Below, piece after piece: positions 4,704-39,250 of a stretch of DNA of 49,459 nt (positions are counted from its first letter, which is position 1; each line of letters starts with the position of its first letter). The translations under genes and the position numbers were made by a program. This DNA comes from a bacterium. GTDB taxonomy: Bacteria > Zhuqueibacterota > QNDG01 > DTFT01. The notes beneath the pieces are model-generated. The model did no database searches, had not been told where the DNA came from, and saw nothing but the letters and a program-made list of their open reading frames with translations. The stretch covers positions 1-49,459 of the forward strand of contig JAUCQC010000182.1 of the NCBI GenBank assembly GCA_030372965.1, written 5' to 3'.

Positions 4704-7124
4704 TCAATGCTTTTCGGAATGAAGGGTGATCGTCGCGGAAGACAGGCCCTCTGAACCCGCCTCCAGCCTGATTTTTCCGGCCTCGCGGGCGCTTCGAACC
4801 ACGACCAGCGCGCGGCCGTGGAAGGCGTTCCGCTCGGTTCCGGAGTAGGGATCCGGGTCCTTTCCGTTTCCGTTGTCCACGCCCGCGATGACTCCGGGTC
4901 CGTCGATCCTGAAACGGAGCCTGTGCCCGGCATCGGGCCGGACCGTCCCCTCCGCGTCCGTGATCTCGACCGTCACGAAGGACAGGTCCTGTCCGTCCGC
5001 GGAGATCCGGGACCGGTCCGGTGTCAGCCGGATGCGGACCGGTTCACCCGCGGTTTTCAATGTCACGGATTCCAGTTCCCGGCCGTCTTTCACTCCCGCG
5101 GCCTTGAGAACGCCGGCAGCGTAAGGCAGAGTGAAAACAGCCTTGAATTCCTGCTCCGGGCCGGTCGGCCGCTCGCCGATTCTGTTCCCATTCAGAAACA
5201 GGCGGACGGACGGGTATCTTGAAACCACTTCGACCTGCACGTCCTTCCCCTCCATGCCGGGCCAGGTCCAGCTTTCCCGGCCGGGCCACACGGACCAGAG
5301 TGTTTCCTGGATAATCCCGTCATCCGGATTGGGCTCCCGGACGGACATGTACAGCTTCTCGGTGTCATTCCATAACATGGACCGGTAGTGGGACACGGGT
5401 TTCCGCCATCCGGTCAGATCGATGTCCCCGCAATAGGAGGTGTGCCAGGGATACACGTCGTTTTCCCAGGATTCCCCTTCCGGTTCGCCCGGAACAAAGG
5501 TGCGGCCGATGCCCGATTCGCCCAGATAGTCGATCGCGGTCCAGACGAAATCCCCGATGATATAGGGATGGTTCCGGACCATTTCCCGGTTGCTGAACGC
5601 GTCCCTCGGAAACGACTCCGTCTGCAGGATGATCCGCGACGGGACCCGCTCGTGGTCGGACACGGCCCGGTGCATCTGATAATTGTACCCGCAGACGTCA
5701 TGCGCCGCCATCAGCGGGTCGAAGATCTCCCACCCCTGGTCCCAGGTGGTCATGGCGGAGGTGACCGGCCGCGTGGGATCCAGGCCGCGGACGCATCGGG
5801 CCAGCATTTTGGCGGTTTCGACCGCGGCCGGATCAGTCCTCTCGATGATTTCGTTCCCGGTGCTCCACATCACGATCGAGGGATGGTTCCGGTCGCGCAT
5901 CACCATGGATTCGAGGTCCCGGCGCCACCAGTCGTCGAAGAAAACCGCGTAGTCGTTCGGATTCTTGCCGGTTCTCCAGCAGTCGAACGATTCGTCGATG
6001 ACCATCAACCCCAGCCGGTCGCACGCGTCGAGAAACGCCTCGGACGGCGGATTGTGCGCCGTGCGCACGGCGTTGAACCCCGCCGCTTTCAGCAGTTCCG
6101 CTTTCCGCTCCTCGGCGCGGTCGAACGCGGCGGCGCCCAGGCATCCGTTGTCGTGATGCGCGCACCCGCCGTTCAGTTTCACGGTTTTCCCGTTCAGCTG
6201 GAATCCGTTTTCAGGGCTGTATTTCAGCGACCGGATGCCGAAGGGAATCCGGACGCGGTCAAGTTCCCTCGTCCCCCGCCTCACCGTGACGCGCGCCTCG
6301 TACAGATAGGGCGTCTCCGGGGACCACAGCCGCGGAGTGCGGACGGTCACCGTGCGCAGGACCTCCCGGCTGCCTGCCGCGGCCAGTCCGACCGATGCCG
6401 TGTCTGCAGACGCGATCCGGCCTTTCCGGTCCAGGACCTGGATATCCAGGAGGATTCTTTGAGCGGTACCGGAGCTGTTCTCCACCGTCGTGCGGATTTG
6501 GACGGCCGCCGCTTCCGGCCGGACGTCCGGGGTCGTGACGCACACGCCCCACGTCGCAATGTGAACCGGATCCGTCACGATGAGCCGGACCGGCCTGTAA
6601 ATGCCGGAGCCGCTGTACCAGCGGGAGTTGAGGTGGCGGGAATTGTCCACGCGCACGGCGAGGACGTTTTCCGAATCCGGGCGGAGATGCTCGGTGAGGT
6701 CATGAAAAAAGGACGTGTACCCGTACGGATGAACGCCCAGCGAATGCCCGTTGATGAACACCTCGGCATTCATGTAAACGCCCCCGAAATAGACGGACAC
6801 GCGTTTGTCCGCCCATTCCGCGGGGATCCGGAAGTGTTTCCGGTACCACCCGGCGCCCGCGGGAAAGAATCCTCCGGCCTGGCCCGTGGGATTGTTTCGA
6901 TCGATTGTGCCCTCGATGCTCCAGTCGTGGGGCAGGTCGAGTGTCCGCCAGTTCCGGTCATCGAACCCCGGGCCGCCGGCGGACGGATCGTCCGTCAGGC
7001 TGAATTTCCAGTCTTCACCGAAAAACAGCCCGCGGTCGGTCCCTCTTGAATGACTCGAGCTTCCGGTCCAGCAGGCGGATAAAACCAGCATCGCCGCGGC
7101 CAGCCATGAGGACAGCTTTTTCAT
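4704..7124 (-). CDS. GH2 beta-galactosidase-like, probable lipoprotein
   Basis: ORF open to 7142; start refined to MKKLSSWLAAAMLVLSAC (lipobox LSAC). LPHDWSIEG, MWSTGNEI acid/base, LQTESF nucleophile, GDFVWTAIDYLGE. Confidence 0.9.
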   Translation of the reverse strand: MKKLSSWLAAAMLVLSACWTGSSSHSRGTDRGLFFGEDWKFSLTDDPSAGGPGFDDRNWRTLDLPHDWSIEGTIDRNNPTGQAGGFFPAGAGWYRKHFRIPAEWADKRVSVYFGGVYMNAEVFINGHSLGVHPYGYTSFFHDLTEHLRPDSENVLAVRVDNSRHLNSRWYSGSGIYRPVRLIVTDPVHIATWGVCVTTPDVRPEAAAVQIRTTVENSSGTAQRILLDIQVLDRKGRIASADTASVGLAAAGSREVLRTVTVRTPRLWSPETPYLYEARVTVRRGTRELDRVRIPFGIRSLKYSPENGFQLNGKTVKLNGGCAHHDNGCLGAAAFDRAEERKAELLKAAGFNAVRTAHNPPSEAFLDACDRLGLMVIDESFDCWRTGKNPNDYAVFFDDWWRRDLESMVMRDRNHPSIVMWSTGNEIIERTDPAAVETAKMLARCVRGLDPTRPVTSAMTTWDQGWEIFDPLMAAHDVCGYNYQMHRAVSDHERVPSRIILQTESFPRDAFSNREMVRNHPYIIGDFVWTAIDYLGESGIGRTFVPGEPEGESWENDVYPWHTSYCGDIDLTGWRKPVSHYRSMLWNDTEKLYMSVREPNPDDGIIQETLWSVWPGRESWTWPGMEGKDVQVEVVSRYPSVRLFLNGNRIGERPTGPEQEFKAVFTLPYAAGVLKAAGVKDGRELESVTLKTAGEPVRIRLTPDRSRISADGQDLSFVTVEITDAEGTVRPDAGHRLRFRIDGPGVIAGVDNGNGKDPDPYSGTERNAFHGRALVVVRSAREAGKIRLEAGSEGLSSATITLHSEKH

Positions 7125-7188
7125 GGGACTCATCCCTTTCATGCGACGCGTGTCAGCCCCGGTGCTCCCAGAGGGACATCCGTGCCCG

Positions 7189-10050
7189 CTATCTTGCTGT
7201 TATGGAAACGCGGGCGGTCGGCAGTCCCTCGGACTCCGCGGAGATCCGTATCTCGCCGGATTCCCCGTTCGACCGGATCACCGCGAGACACAGTCCGTGG
7301 AACGCCTTCCGGTGATCCCGGTTGAAATATTCATGGCTGACCGGGTTGCCGTTGTCCACTCCGGCGATCGCGCCCGCGCCGGACACCGAGAATCGCACGA
7401 GCGGGTCCGCGTCGGGGCACAGCCGCCCTTCCCTGTCGGCGATCTCCACCCGGACGAACGAAAGGTCCTTCCCGTCCGGCCGGATCGCGGCGCGATCGGG
7501 CTTCAGGATGATTCGCGCCGGGACGCCCGCGGTGACCGCTGAATCCGCGCACGCCGCTTCCCCGTTGTTTTTGGCGACGGCCCGCACTGTACCCGGCGCG
7601 TAGGGAACCTTCCATTCCAAATAAAGATGCTCCGTGTCCCGGAAACTTTTTTCGCCGAGGGACCGTCCGTTCAGGAACAGTTCCACGGTCCCGCAGTTGC
7701 TGTAACAACGGACGGGGATCTTCTTTCCCTCGAAACCCGGCCAGTTCCAATGCGGAAGGACGTGGACCATGGGCGATCCGGTCCATTGACTCTGGTAGAG
7801 GTAGAACCGGTCCTTCGGAAACCCGCACCGGTCGACGATTCCGAAATAGGAGGAAACCGACGGCCAGCTGAAGGGGGACGGCTCGCCGATGTAGTCGAAT
7901 CCCGTCCACACGAACTCTCCGGCGATCCACGGGGCCGCGGCGACCGCCTTCAGCGTGTTTTCCGCCGTGTCGTCGTCGTAGGAGGAACGCTGATTGTCCA
8001 GGGCCAGGACGATTTTCGGGTCCCCGTTTCCTTCGGCGACCAGGTTGTACCGGCCCCGCGTGCTCACGGCCGAGGCGGTTTCGGAGGCGACCAGCGGCGT
8101 CTTCCCCTTCAGGGTCGGGTAGAAGGAAAGGTTGTAATTGACGCCGAACACGTCCAGCGGTTTCGAGAAGCCGGTTTCCACGGCCGCTTCCGGCAGGTTG
8201 CAGCCCGCGGTGACCGGCCGGGTCGGATCCTCACGCCGGCAGATGTCCGCAAGCCGCTTCGACATTTCGAACGCGTCCGGATGGTACTGCTCGGGGATCT
8301 CGTTGCCGATGCTCCAGAGAATGACGCTGGGATGGTTCCGGTCGCGGCGGATCATGTCCGCCAGGTCCCGTTCGCTCCAGGAGTCGAAAAACCGGTCGTA
8401 TCCGAACGTCGTTTTCGGCCTCTTCCACTCGTCGAACGCCTCGTCCATGACGAGGAATCCCATCCGGTCGCAGAGGTCCAGGAGTTCGGGAGCGGGCGGA
8501 TTGTGGCTCGTTCGAACCGCGTTGCAGCCCATGGTCTTCATGATTTCGAGCTGGCGCTCGATGGCGCGGCCGTTCACGGCGGTCCCCAGGCATCCCAGGT
8601 CGTGGTGGAGGTTCACCCCCCGTATCGGGACATGCCTGCCGTTCAGGAAAAATCCGCTGTCCACGGTGAATTCGAATGTCCGGATGCCGAAAGGCGTTTC
8701 GCCGGAATCCGTTTCCCGGCCGTTCACCCGGACCAGGGACTTGACGCCGTAGAGAACCGGATTCTCCAGGGACCATAAAGCGGGTTTGGCGATTCTGAGG
8801 GTATGGAGGAAAAGGCCGGCGCTGTCGGGTTCGATCCGCATCTCGGAACGGGTCACGGCGGTTTCGCGTCCGGACGCGTCCACAATGACGGATTCCAGAA
8901 TGACGGACTGCGGAACCGGCGACTGGTTCCGGACTTTTGTTTCCACGCGGACCGTCGCCGCGTCCTCGGAAACGTCCGGCGTGGTCACGCCGACCCCCCA
9001 CTGCGCGATGTGAACCGGATCGGTCTTCGTCAGCCGCACGTTCCGGTAAATGCCCGCACCGGAATACCAGCGGGAACAGGGCTGTTTCACGTCGACCCGC
9101 ACGGCCAGGACGTTCCTCCCCTCTCCGAACCGGACGTGCTCCGTCAATTCATACTGACAGCTGGAATAGCCGTACGGCCGGTTGCCGAGATGCGCGCCGT
9201 TGATCCAGACGTCGCTGTTCATGTACACGCCGTCGAATTCGACGAATATCCTTTTCCCCCGGTCGCCTTCGGGCAGGCTGAACGTCTTTCTGTACCACCC
9301 GGTTCCTCCGTCGACATATCCCGCTCCGCTGCCGCCCGGGCAGGCGGAATCGAAGGGTCCCTCGATCGTCTTCTCCCCCTCCGCGTAGAGGCCGCCGCCC
9401 TGGACGCCGTCGAACACACGTATGGCGATGCTGTTGCTTTCCCCGTACCGGATGAGTTCGGCGGGAATCCGGTACTGCCTGAGCCGGTCCCACGCGGTCA
9501 CGTAACCGGGGGGAAAGGATCCCAGGCCGCCCACCTTCACGCCGTTGAAGAAAGTCTCGTCCGCGTCGTCGATCCTCCCCAGATTGACGATGATGTCCTT
9601 TCCCTTTAAATCCGCCGGGACAACCAGGCCGCGCCGGTACCATCCGATCACGTTGTCGTCCGTGTAGTCCGAGTGCGTCTCCCAGTTCGCCGGAAGCGTC
9701 ACGTTCTGCCAGGAACCGTCGTCCAGCCCGGGATTTTTCCACGACGGATCGTCGCCCTTGCTGAATTTCCACTGGCCGGCCGCCGCGCGGATCTCGGGGA
9801 CGGCTTCCGCCTCCGGCTCGGCCGGGGTCAGCCCTTCTATGCTCCAGTCGTGGGGCAGGATAAGGCTGCGCCAGGCAGAATCGTCCAGCGAGGGGTTCTG
9901 TCCGTCCGGGACATCGCCGAGCCGGAAACGCCAGCCCTCGTTGAACGGGACCGTGCCCGGGGACTGGGCGGTCACGGCGGACGCGGCCAGGAAACACGCC
10001 GCGCCGGCCGCGATCCGGCGGATCGCGCGGGGATGGGATCGAAACATCAC
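7189..10050 (-). CDS. GH2 glycoside hydrolase with an extra jelly-roll-like insertion
   Basis: 953 aa; LPHDWSIEG, ILWSIGNEI, ASETAS, GEFVWTGFDYIGE; ~160 aa insert relative to the neighbouring GH2. Confidence 0.9.
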   Translation of the reverse strand: MMFRSHPRAIRRIAAGAACFLAASAVTAQSPGTVPFNEGWRFRLGDVPDGQNPSLDDSAWRSLILPHDWSIEGLTPAEPEAEAVPEIRAAAGQWKFSKGDDPSWKNPGLDDGSWQNVTLPANWETHSDYTDDNVIGWYRRGLVVPADLKGKDIIVNLGRIDDADETFFNGVKVGGLGSFPPGYVTAWDRLRQYRIPAELIRYGESNSIAIRVFDGVQGGGLYAEGEKTIEGPFDSACPGGSGAGYVDGGTGWYRKTFSLPEGDRGKRIFVEFDGVYMNSDVWINGAHLGNRPYGYSSCQYELTEHVRFGEGRNVLAVRVDVKQPCSRWYSGAGIYRNVRLTKTDPVHIAQWGVGVTTPDVSEDAATVRVETKVRNQSPVPQSVILESVIVDASGRETAVTRSEMRIEPDSAGLFLHTLRIAKPALWSLENPVLYGVKSLVRVNGRETDSGETPFGIRTFEFTVDSGFFLNGRHVPIRGVNLHHDLGCLGTAVNGRAIERQLEIMKTMGCNAVRTSHNPPAPELLDLCDRMGFLVMDEAFDEWKRPKTTFGYDRFFDSWSERDLADMIRRDRNHPSVILWSIGNEIPEQYHPDAFEMSKRLADICRREDPTRPVTAGCNLPEAAVETGFSKPLDVFGVNYNLSFYPTLKGKTPLVASETASAVSTRGRYNLVAEGNGDPKIVLALDNQRSSYDDDTAENTLKAVAAAPWIAGEFVWTGFDYIGEPSPFSWPSVSSYFGIVDRCGFPKDRFYLYQSQWTGSPMVHVLPHWNWPGFEGKKIPVRCYSNCGTVELFLNGRSLGEKSFRDTEHLYLEWKVPYAPGTVRAVAKNNGEAACADSAVTAGVPARIILKPDRAAIRPDGKDLSFVRVEIADREGRLCPDADPLVRFSVSGAGAIAGVDNGNPVSHEYFNRDHRKAFHGLCLAVIRSNGESGEIRISAESEGLPTARVSITAR

Positions 10051-35407: not shown

Positions 35408-36574
35408 ATGGCCGATTTTCTCGAAATCGAGGACGTTTCCAGGCATTTCCGGAACATCCGCGCCGTGGACCACGTGTCCCTGACGGTACGCAAGGGCGAG
35501 TTCTATTCCCTGCTGGGTCCGAGCGGATGCGGAAAGACCACGCTGCTCCGGATGCTGGCCGGGTTCGAGCGGCCCGACACGGGCCGCATCCGGCTCGACG
35601 GCAGGGACATCACGGACCTTCCCCCGCACAAGCGGACCGTCAACACCATCTTTCAGAACTACGCCCTGCTCCCGCACCTCACGGTGCGGCAGAACATCGC
35701 CTTCGGCCTCCAGGTGCAGAAGAAGATGCCCCGGAAGGAAATCGACGAGGCCGTCGACCGGATGCTGAGCCTGGTTCAGCTCGAATCGCAGGCGGACAAG
35801 AAGCCGGGGCTCCTGAGCGGCGGACAGAAACAGCGCGTGGCCGTTGGACGCGCCCTTATCCTGCAGCCCCAGGTGCTCCTGCTGGACGAGCCGCTGGCGG
35901 CGCTCGACCTCAAACTCCGCCAGAAAATGCTCATGGAACTGGACCTCATCCACGATCAGGTCGGCATCACCTTCATCTACGTGACCCACGACCAGGGCGA
36001 GGCCATGAGCCTGAGCGACCGGATCGCCGTGATGAACAACGGGCGGATCGAGCAGGTGGGGAAACCCGCCGAGATCTACGAGGCGCCCCGCAGCAGTTTC
36101 GTGGCCGCCTTCATCGGCGACACCAACTTCTTCGAGGGCCAGGTGCTGGAGCTCGTGGGCGACGAGTACTCCCGGCTCAATATCTCGGGATTCGCCGACC
36201 TGGTGTGTTTCAACGACAAGAAAATATCCGCCGGCAACCCGGTGTTCCTGAGCATACGGCCCGAGAAGTTCCACATCGGCCGGAACCGGCCGGAGCTCAG
36301 CCCCAAGCACAACATCGTGCGGGGCCGCGTGGAGGACATCATCTATCTCGGCGGAATGACCAAGTACTGGGTTCAGGCGGAGGGGCACAAGATTTCGATC
36401 ACCCGCCAGCACTCCCGCTTCTTCCTCGACGAGGAGCCGATCCGCTGGAACGACGACGTGTGGGTCTGGTGGCACGCGGACGACGGGTTCATGCTCGAAC
36501 GGTACAGCGAGGCCGACGAAAACCTCGTCAGCCTCCCCCCGGACGCGTCCGGGACCGCGGAGACGGCGCAGTGA
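35408..36574 (+). CDS. potA: Polyamine ABC transporter ATP-binding protein PotA
   Basis: 388 aa; LLGPSGCGKTTLLRMLAGFE (Walker A), LSGGQKQRVAVGRAL, LLLDEPLAALD, TOBE-like C-terminus. Confidence 0.95.
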   Translation: MADFLEIEDVSRHFRNIRAVDHVSLTVRKGEFYSLLGPSGCGKTTLLRMLAGFERPDTGRIRLDGRDITDLPPHKRTVNTIFQNYALLPHLTVRQNIAFGLQVQKKMPRKEIDEAVDRMLSLVQLESQADKKPGLLSGGQKQRVAVGRALILQPQVLLLDEPLAALDLKLRQKMLMELDLIHDQVGITFIYVTHDQGEAMSLSDRIAVMNNGRIEQVGKPAEIYEAPRSSFVAAFIGDTNFFEGQVLELVGDEYSRLNISGFADLVCFNDKKISAGNPVFLSIRPEKFHIGRNRPELSPKHNIVRGRVEDIIYLGGMTKYWVQAEGHKISITRQHSRFFLDEEPIRWNDDVWVWWHADDGFMLERYSEADENLVSLPPDASGTAETAQ

Positions 36575-37449
36575 CCGGCGGCCGGAAGAACGGCGAATGG
36601 GCCGTCACCGCGCCGACATTCGTCTGGCTCACGCTGCTCTTCGTCATTCCGACCTTTCTGGTCTTCACCATCGTCTTCAAGCCGTCCGACCCGTACGGCG
36701 GCATCGGGTCCGGGTGGACCCTCCGGACGCTGTTCAGCCTCGGCAACCCGAATTACCCGGCCATTCTCTGGCGCACCGCGTGGCTCAGCGCCCTGACCAC
36801 GGCGCTCTGCCTGGCGCTGGCCGTGCCGACCGGCTACTGCATGGCCCGGACCGACCGCCGGTTCAGGAACACGCTGCTGCTCCTGGTGATCATCCCCTTC
36901 ATGACGAGTTTTCTCGTCCGCATCTTCGCCTGGAAAGTGCTCCTGCATCCCGAGGGCCTGATCAAGCGCGGCCTGGTGCTGCTGGGTCTGGCGCATTCCG
37001 ACACGTCCCTGCTGTACACGCCCGGCGCCGTGCTCCTGGTGATGGTGTACACGTCCCTGCCGTTCGCCATTCTGCCGGTCTTCGCGGCCGCCGAGAAGTT
37101 CGACTTTCACCTGATCGAGGCGGCCCGGGACCTCGGCGCGACCCACGCCGGGGCCTTCTTCCGCGTGTTCATTCCGGGCATCAGCCGCGCGCTCTTCACG
37201 TCCGTCCTGGTCGTCCTGATCCCGTGCCTGGGGTCTTACGTCATCCCGGACGTCGTCGGCGGGCCCAACAGCGAGATGCTCGGCAACAAGATCGCCCAGC
37301 GGACCTTCTCGGACCGGAACCTGCCGCACGCGAGCGGATTGTCGGCGATTCTGACCCTGGCCGTCCTGATCCCGATGGTCTGGGTGGTGCTGTCGCAGCG
37401 GAAACGCGAAACGGGCGGCGGCGGGTCCATTCTCAAGGACATCGTATGA
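36571..37449 (+). CDS. potB: Polyamine ABC transporter permease PotB
   Basis: GTG start overlapping the potA stop; multiple TM helices, EAARDLGATHAGAFFRVFIPGISRAL EAA loop. Confidence 0.93.
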   Translation: MTGGRKNGEWAVTAPTFVWLTLLFVIPTFLVFTIVFKPSDPYGGIGSGWTLRTLFSLGNPNYPAILWRTAWLSALTTALCLALAVPTGYCMARTDRRFRNTLLLLVIIPFMTSFLVRIFAWKVLLHPEGLIKRGLVLLGLAHSDTSLLYTPGAVLLVMVYTSLPFAILPVFAAAEKFDFHLIEAARDLGATHAGAFFRVFIPGISRALFTSVLVVLIPCLGSYVIPDVVGGPNSEMLGNKIAQRTFSDRNLPHASGLSAILTLAVLIPMVWVVLSQRKRETGGGGSILKDIV

Positions 37450-38225
37450 AGCGGAGCCGTTTCCCCATGGCGGTCACGGCCTCGGTGCTGGTCTTCTTCT
37501 ACCTGCCGATCGCCGTGCTGGTCGTCAATTCCTTCAACGCCTCCGTGTACGGCGGCCGGTGGGAGGGCTTCTCCCTGCGCTGGTACGCGAAACTGGCCGG
37601 CCAGCGCGAGATCCTCCACGCGCTGGAGAACACCCTCCTCATCGCGGTGTCCGCGACCCTGGTCTCCTGCGCGCTCGGCACGCTGGCCGCGTTCGCCCTG
37701 CACCGGTACCGGTCGGCCCTCCAGCGCTGGCATTTCACGCTGATCTACACGCCCCTGGTCGTCCCCGAAATCCTGATGGGCATGAGCCTCCTCCTGACCT
37801 TCGTGGCCGCCGGCGTCCGGCTCGGCCTGTTCACGATATTTCTGGCGCACGTCACCTTCTGCATCAGCTACGTCGCCATGGTGGTGCTCGCCCGCCTGCA
37901 GGACTTCGATTTCTCGGTCATCGAGGCGGCCCAGGACCTCGGCGCGAACGCCTGGGTGACGGCGCGCCGCGTCCTCGCGCCCATGCTCGCGCCGGGAATC
38001 GCCTCGGGCGCGCTTCTGGCCCTCACCCTGTCGATCGACGACTTCGTTATTTCCTTCTTCGTCGCGGGGCCGGGCTCCACCACGCTCCCGATCCGCATCT
38101 ACAGCATGATCAAATTCGGGTCGCCCGCGATGCTCAACGCGCTGTCGACCCTTCTGCTGGTCGTCACGTTCACGCTGGTCTGGACCAGCCAACATCTCAT
38201 CACGAAAGGGGAACAGGCAAAATGA
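37446..38225 (+). CDS. potC: Polyamine ABC transporter permease PotC
   Basis: ATG start overlapping the potB stop (ATGA); EAAQDLGANAWVTARRVLAPMLAPGI EAA loop. Confidence 0.94.
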   Translation: MKRSRFPMAVTASVLVFFYLPIAVLVVNSFNASVYGGRWEGFSLRWYAKLAGQREILHALENTLLIAVSATLVSCALGTLAAFALHRYRSALQRWHFTLIYTPLVVPEILMGMSLLLTFVAAGVRLGLFTIFLAHVTFCISYVAMVVLARLQDFDFSVIEAAQDLGANAWVTARRVLAPMLAPGIASGALLALTLSIDDFVISFFVAGPGSTTLPIRIYSMIKFGSPAMLNALSTLLLVVTFTLVWTSQHLITKGEQAK

Positions 38226-39250
38226 AAAAAGCGCTGTTTCTGCTGCCGCTGCTCGCGTGTCTGGCGGGATGCCGGTCCGGGGTGAAGACCCTCCACGTCT
38301 ACACCTGGGCCGACTACATCCGGCCCGACCTCATCACCCGCTTCGAGAAGGAAAACAACTGCCGCATCGTCATCGACACCTTCGACAGCAACGAGGCCAT
38401 GTACGCCAAGCTCAAGGCCGGCGCCTCCGGGTACGACATCGTCACGCCCAGCAGTTACATGGTCAAAATCATGCACGATCAGGGCATGCTCCTGGAACTG
38501 GACCACGCCCGCCTGCCCAACCTGAAGCACGTCGACGCCGCCTTCCTCGGAATCGCCGTGGACCGCCGCATGGACCACAGCGTCCCGTACATGATCACCT
38601 ACGCGGGAATCGGCTTTCTGTCGGACCGGGTGAAGGACGCCAGGCCGACCTGGAAGATGCTGGACCGGAGCGACCTGAAGGGCCGCATGACCGTGCTCAA
38701 TGACATGCGCGAGACATTGGGCGCCGCCCTCAAGTCGCTCGGCTACAGCCTGAACACCGTGGATGAAAAGCAGCTGGCCGAGGCGCGCGACACGGTCATC
38801 CGCTGGAAGAAAAACATCGCCAAATTCGACAACGAGCAGTACAAGATCGGCCTGGCGTCGGGCGAGTTCCTCCTGGTCCACGGGTACAGCGGCGACATCC
38901 TGAAGGTGCGCGAGGAGAACGACAAGGTCGCCTTCATGCTCCCGGAGGAGGGCTTTTCGCTGTCGTGCGACGACCTCGTGATCCTCAAGGCGGCCAAAGA
39001 GGCGGAACTGGCGCACGCCTTCATCAATTTTCTGCACCAGCCCGACGTGGCCGCGGCCAACACCGAATTCATCCTGTACCTGTGCCCGAATTCCTCGAGC
39101 TACGCCATGCTCGGCGACTCGATCAAGTCGGATCCGGGCGTGTTCCCCAGCGCCGAGACGCTCGCCAGGGGTGAGATCATCGTGGATCTGGGAGAGAACA
39201 ACGCGAAGTACGTGAAGGTCTGGGATGAGATCAAGGCCGCGGGGGACTGA
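38222..39250 (+). CDS. potD: Polyamine-binding lipoprotein PotD
   Basis: ATG start overlapping the potC stop (ATGA); MKKALFLLPLLACLAGC lipobox, LHVYTWADYIRPDLITRFEKENNCRIVIDTFDSNEAMYAKLKAG. Confidence 0.96.
   Translation: MKKALFLLPLLACLAGCRSGVKTLHVYTWADYIRPDLITRFEKENNCRIVIDTFDSNEAMYAKLKAGASGYDIVTPSSYMVKIMHDQGMLLELDHARLPNLKHVDAAFLGIAVDRRMDHSVPYMITYAGIGFLSDRVKDARPTWKMLDRSDLKGRMTVLNDMRETLGAALKSLGYSLNTVDEKQLAEARDTVIRWKKNIAKFDNEQYKIGLASGEFLLVHGYSGDILKVREENDKVAFMLPEEGFSLSCDDLVILKAAKEAELAHAFINFLHQPDVAAANTEFILYLCPNSSSYAMLGDSIKSDPGVFPSAETLARGEIIVDLGENNAKYVKVWDEIKAAGD

Follow-up and report, generated by a model that had tools for sequence, protein, structure and literature searches.

The ancillary domain of the CE20 acetylesterases has been described as GH2-like and as lining the active-site cleft (PMC12313940, PMC8245568), and the module has been proposed to affect substrate recognition (PMC12313940). 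The founding member of CE20 is located in a xyloglucan locus. In the window analysed here (the whole stretch of DNA, 49,459 nucleotides), a second jelly-roll of this X448/CE20 ancillary type is inserted into the homologous N-terminal jelly-roll of a GH2 enzyme, P0001, which is probably a secreted beta-galactosidase.

P0001 scored above the Pfam cut-offs for Glyco_hydro_2_N, Glyco_hydro_2 and the TIM barrel, which places it in GH2, and its nearest solved relatives were beta-galactosidases; against the NCBIfam GalB model it reached 872 bits, just below the cut-off of 900. The pair of glutamates used in GH2 as acid/base and nucleophile was located by alignment at E584 (GNE) and E657 (SET) and was invariant across 73 GH2s. 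No SASA/SGNH match, and with it no CE20 esterase catalytic domain, was returned by Pfam for P0001. The N-terminal domain contained ~155 extra residues (aa 74–228, nt 9367–9831), flanked by LPHDWSIEG and IEGPFD...GWYRK; the span from LPHDW to GWYR was 184 residues, against 26 in the neighbouring GH2 (P0002) and 24–26, at most 43, in other close GH2s. In an alignment of P0001 and 72 further GH2s, the columns added by the insert were filled to 99% in the nested rows and to 0.2% in the rest. The reading frame and both flanks were as given in a preliminary description of the locus, which had set the insert at 9346–9831; the end of that interval was retained, but its start took in the first host residues past the insert and was corrected to 9367. 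Assembly error was rejected as the source of the insert because independent assemblies from several phyla share both the insert and its site. The insert comprised a complete domain of ~135 residues with a linker on either side, the exit linker overlapping the start (IEG) of the second half of the host domain (Table 1). Pfam left the insert below threshold (18 bits against 28) and split the host domain, which illustrates how domain callers miss a nested homologous domain.

Table 1. Positions in the window of the nested enzyme, its parts and the neighbouring GH2 gene.
Feature	Position (nt)	Strand	Residues	Remarks
P0002, neighbouring GH2 without insert	4704..7142	minus		belongs to the GH2 group containing nested clade B
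P0001, GH2 beta-galactosidase-type enzyme with nested module	7189..10050	minus	953 aa	
Host N-terminal domain, second half	9016..9366	minus	aa 229-345	from IEGPFD
Exit linker KTIEGP	9355..9372	minus	aa 227-232	pLDDT < 50 at aa 225-230
Inserted X448/CE20-ancillary-type beta-sandwich module	9373..9777	minus	aa 92-226	
Entry linker	9778..9831	minus	aa 74-91	pLDDT < 50 at aa 74-82
Host N-terminal domain, first half	9832..9954	minus	aa 33-73	ends LPHDWSIEG

Structures were predicted with AlphaFold for the insert alone (pLDDT 93) and for the whole enzyme, where pLDDT averaged 92.9 but dropped below 50 in part of each linker; given these low values, both linkers are probably flexible. The preliminary description had read the insert as a jelly-roll nested in a homologous domain and had named structure prediction as the check; an independent beta-sandwich was returned with a confident fold, which supports that reading. 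The profile of the insert family was matched to that of the GH2 N-terminal domain by hhalign with a probability of 99.6% (E 9e-25), so host and guest domains are homologous. The best solved relative of the insert was the inserted domain of XacXaeA, a CE20 esterase (7KMM; phmmer E 4e-15, profile E 4e-32), after which came the ancillary domains of other CE20 enzymes and the N-terminal domains of GH2s. With Foldseek, the insert was matched to GH2 N-terminal domains and to 9H4U (rmsd 1.7 A), and the whole of P0001 to the GH2 beta-galactosidases 7CWD, 4YPJ and 5T98/5T99 (TM-score 0.90–0.94 on the target). In sequence and fold alike the insert resembles the X448/CE20 ancillary domains; its earlier assignment as a GH2-type domain thus holds as to homology, but it is closer to the CE20/X448 lineage than to the GH2 N-terminal domains.

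The nested form was found in 14 genomes, always at the same residue, a count that is a lower bound because the samples overlapped and in the large ones only part of the candidates was scored. Among the best 80 GH2 relatives four were nested. Nested enzymes (335 bits or more, full length) were separated from plain GH2s (201 bits or less) by a profile of the nested region. Searches with this profile yielded 2 nested hits among 81 in the enzyme's own phylum, both from one genus, 4 among 45 in the phylum of the Goldiibacteriota genome G084, 5 among 228 in the class of G834, 2 among 116 in the order of G082, 2 among 294 in the phylum of L044 (a planctomycete), and 1 among 245 in the class and 1 among 396 in the phylum of G083; none was obtained among 289 in the phylum of L070, a verrucomicrobial genome. 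The survey of how widespread the arrangement is, suggested at the outset, therefore describes it as rare, in at least 14 genomes from several phyla. In a host tree calculated with the inserts cut out, two distant nested clades of seven members each were recovered: clade A contains P0001, and clade B falls in the group of P0002, the neighbouring gene in the window being among its closest non-nested relatives. A single clade of all nested hosts was rejected by AU tests (p 3e-33).

In a sequence alignment the insertion loop coincided with the loop of E. coli LacZ that carries Asn102, a residue that contacts docked inhibitors, placed in the active site by docking (PMC7934981). Residues conserved in the nested modules and rare elsewhere (H127, S128, Y130, D133 and N134) clustered in one loop of the module and would suit a putative binding or contact surface. 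Next to the clade A genes were found an adjacent GH74 xyloglucanase (L134), a GH31 alpha-xylosidase and GalT–GalK for galactose metabolism nearby (L141 and L133), GH29, GH43 and GH31 in one locus (L138) and, in the window, a GH31 alpha-xylosidase, a GH5 xyloglucanase-like enzyme and a GH29. The clade B neighbours examined were varied and bore no xyloglucan signature, which means that not all nested enzymes can have a role specific to xyloglucan. The window itself contains a large plant cell-wall locus (1064–46361) in which xyloglucan-, xylan- and pectin-type enzymes are mixed and which includes ABC-type transport genes (35527–39250).

The earlier suggestion that the insert may provide an additional binding site or change how substrates reach the enzyme is strengthened by the alignment with the Asn102 loop and by the xyloglucan genes found near clade A genes. 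In the mechanism proposed here, a single capture of the module would have been followed by its transfer, through recombination, from one GH2 subfamily to another; placed near the mouth of the active site on its two flexible linkers, the module would keep hold of the remainder of a branched oligosaccharide (in clade A probably one from xyloglucan) as its terminal galactose is cleaved off in the host pocket, by analogy with the module of the same kind that helps to form the cleft of CE20 esterases. Our best guess is then that P0001 is a beta-galactosidase acting on xyloglucan, with the module as a built-in lid that holds the substrate. To this joint explanation (a GH2 host with an inserted X448/CE20-type module, a single capture followed by transfer, and substrate holding near the active site) we assign an even chance of being right. 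It is possible, and put forward here tentatively, that X448-type modules are portable active-site lids, spliced internally into the active-site loops of unrelated catalytic folds, those of SGNH esterases and of two GH2 subfamilies, swappable between enzymes and changing how branched substrates are held. Alternatively, the module might be a tethered binding module, which would attach the enzyme to polysaccharide without contributing to the active site. Both linkers are of low confidence and probably flexible, as such a tether would be, and the family also occurs outside active sites (as tandem pairs in proteins where no catalytic domain is recognised, and N-terminally on AXE1 esterases and a GH27); the explanation nevertheless seems rather unlikely, given that the insert occupies the same residue position in every case, within a loop that aligns to an active-site loop in LacZ, whereas tethered CBMs usually sit at a terminus.

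In a tree of 14 inserts, all formed one clade (100/99) with those of A and B as sister clades, and in a tree of 10 inserts they were separated from the tandem, AXE1-linked, GH27-linked and CE20 modules and from the GH2 N-terminal domains (100/100). A position of the clade B inserts inside A, weakly supported in the 10-sequence tree, was discarded once 14 sequences resolved A and B as separate sisters. Since two host clades are set against one insert clade, a single capture with later movement from one GH2 subfamily to another is favoured, and it would be the simplest and best-fitting reading. Identity between A and B was 47% for the insert, only slightly above the 41% of the host, so a transfer later than the host split would rest mainly on the shape of the trees. 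The half of the host N-terminal domain that follows the insert fitted either grouping, and no host recombination breakpoint was placed around the insert, sliding identities included. The sister group of clade A was formed by three non-nested enzymes (L044, L045 and L046) with 9–11 extra residues and a second EG exactly at the insertion site, an extension that could be a precursor loop or a deletion scar. It indicates that the loop is tolerant and, with the division of the nested hosts into two clades, would accord with two independent captures, in which two GH2 subfamilies each received, in the same loop, a related module from an unsampled lineage of free-standing modules. We consider this unlikely: in both trees the inserts group together to the exclusion of the other sampled modules, their length is near constant (153–156 aa), their entry linkers are similar, and among the modules sampled no free-standing one had the nested-specific residues. 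If the extension and the second EG were a deletion scar, nesting could also be ancestral to the GH2 group and lost elsewhere, but this is improbable, as ~9 losses would be needed on the host tree, nearly all of them restoring a loop of 24–26 residues. The motifs common to insert and host (WxF..GD, DDS.W, LP.[DN]W and GWYR) might point to an insert that arose recently by duplication of the N-terminal domain within the host itself. This origin has a negligible chance of being correct: it is ruled out by the insert tree, in which the insert falls with the X448-type modules and is separated from GH2 N-terminal domains with full support, and it is opposed by the far lower scores of the insert profile on GH2 N-terminal domains than on free-standing modules. 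Because the insert is closer to the CE20/X448 lineage, it represents a separate module lineage, acquired from another module family, and is no copy of the host domain. Recent foreign DNA was also considered and rejected, GC and GC3 of the insert being near those of the rest of the P0001 gene.

Domains nested in a homologous domain with both folds intact are, to our knowledge, uncommon. Neither the PDB, nor NCBIfam, nor the literature searched yielded a GH2 jelly-roll with a homologous inserted domain; the possibility, raised in the preliminary description, that this is an already described standard GH2 subfamily architecture was thus not borne out. Insertion near an active site is already known for this module in CE20. 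If the lid role is true, it would show how exo-acting galactosidases can become specific for branched hemicelluloses. In three genomes (window 4704–10050, L040 and L042) the nested GH2 gene lies next to a non-nested one, and such side-by-side genes are a natural pair for testing the lid role.

Among known systems, the GH2 beta-galactosidases with DUF4982 and C5 domains (7CWD, 5T98/5T99, 4YPJ and 8Q2H; NCBIfam GalB and GalA) have the same host fold and catalytic residues as P0001, and the insert, present in P0001, is in none of these solved relatives examined. The CE20 acetylesterases with an X448 domain (XacXaeA, 7KMM; Fl8CE20_II, 9H4U; PpCE20_II, 9EGA) resemble P0001 in carrying a homologous beta-sandwich in the middle of a domain of a carbohydrate-active enzyme, but their module is hosted by an SGNH esterase domain and that of P0001 by the homologous GH2 N-terminal jelly-roll; the CE20 module has a role in the catalytic triad. 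Proteins of two such modules (~330–400 aa, without a recognised catalytic domain) are common in the phylum (L002, in the same genome at C22:17801-18646, and many of L012–L039), with several tandem-module genes close together in L025 (G014 C59:40391-46860), and in L004, L005, L017, L018 and L021 the module forms the N-terminal part of fusions with AXE1-type acetyl xylan esterases and with a GH27. The tandem proteins and both kinds of fusion belong to the same module family as the insert, to which the tandem and AXE1-linked modules are ~31–46% identical; in these proteins the modules are free-standing pairs or N-terminal, whereas in P0001 the module is nested.
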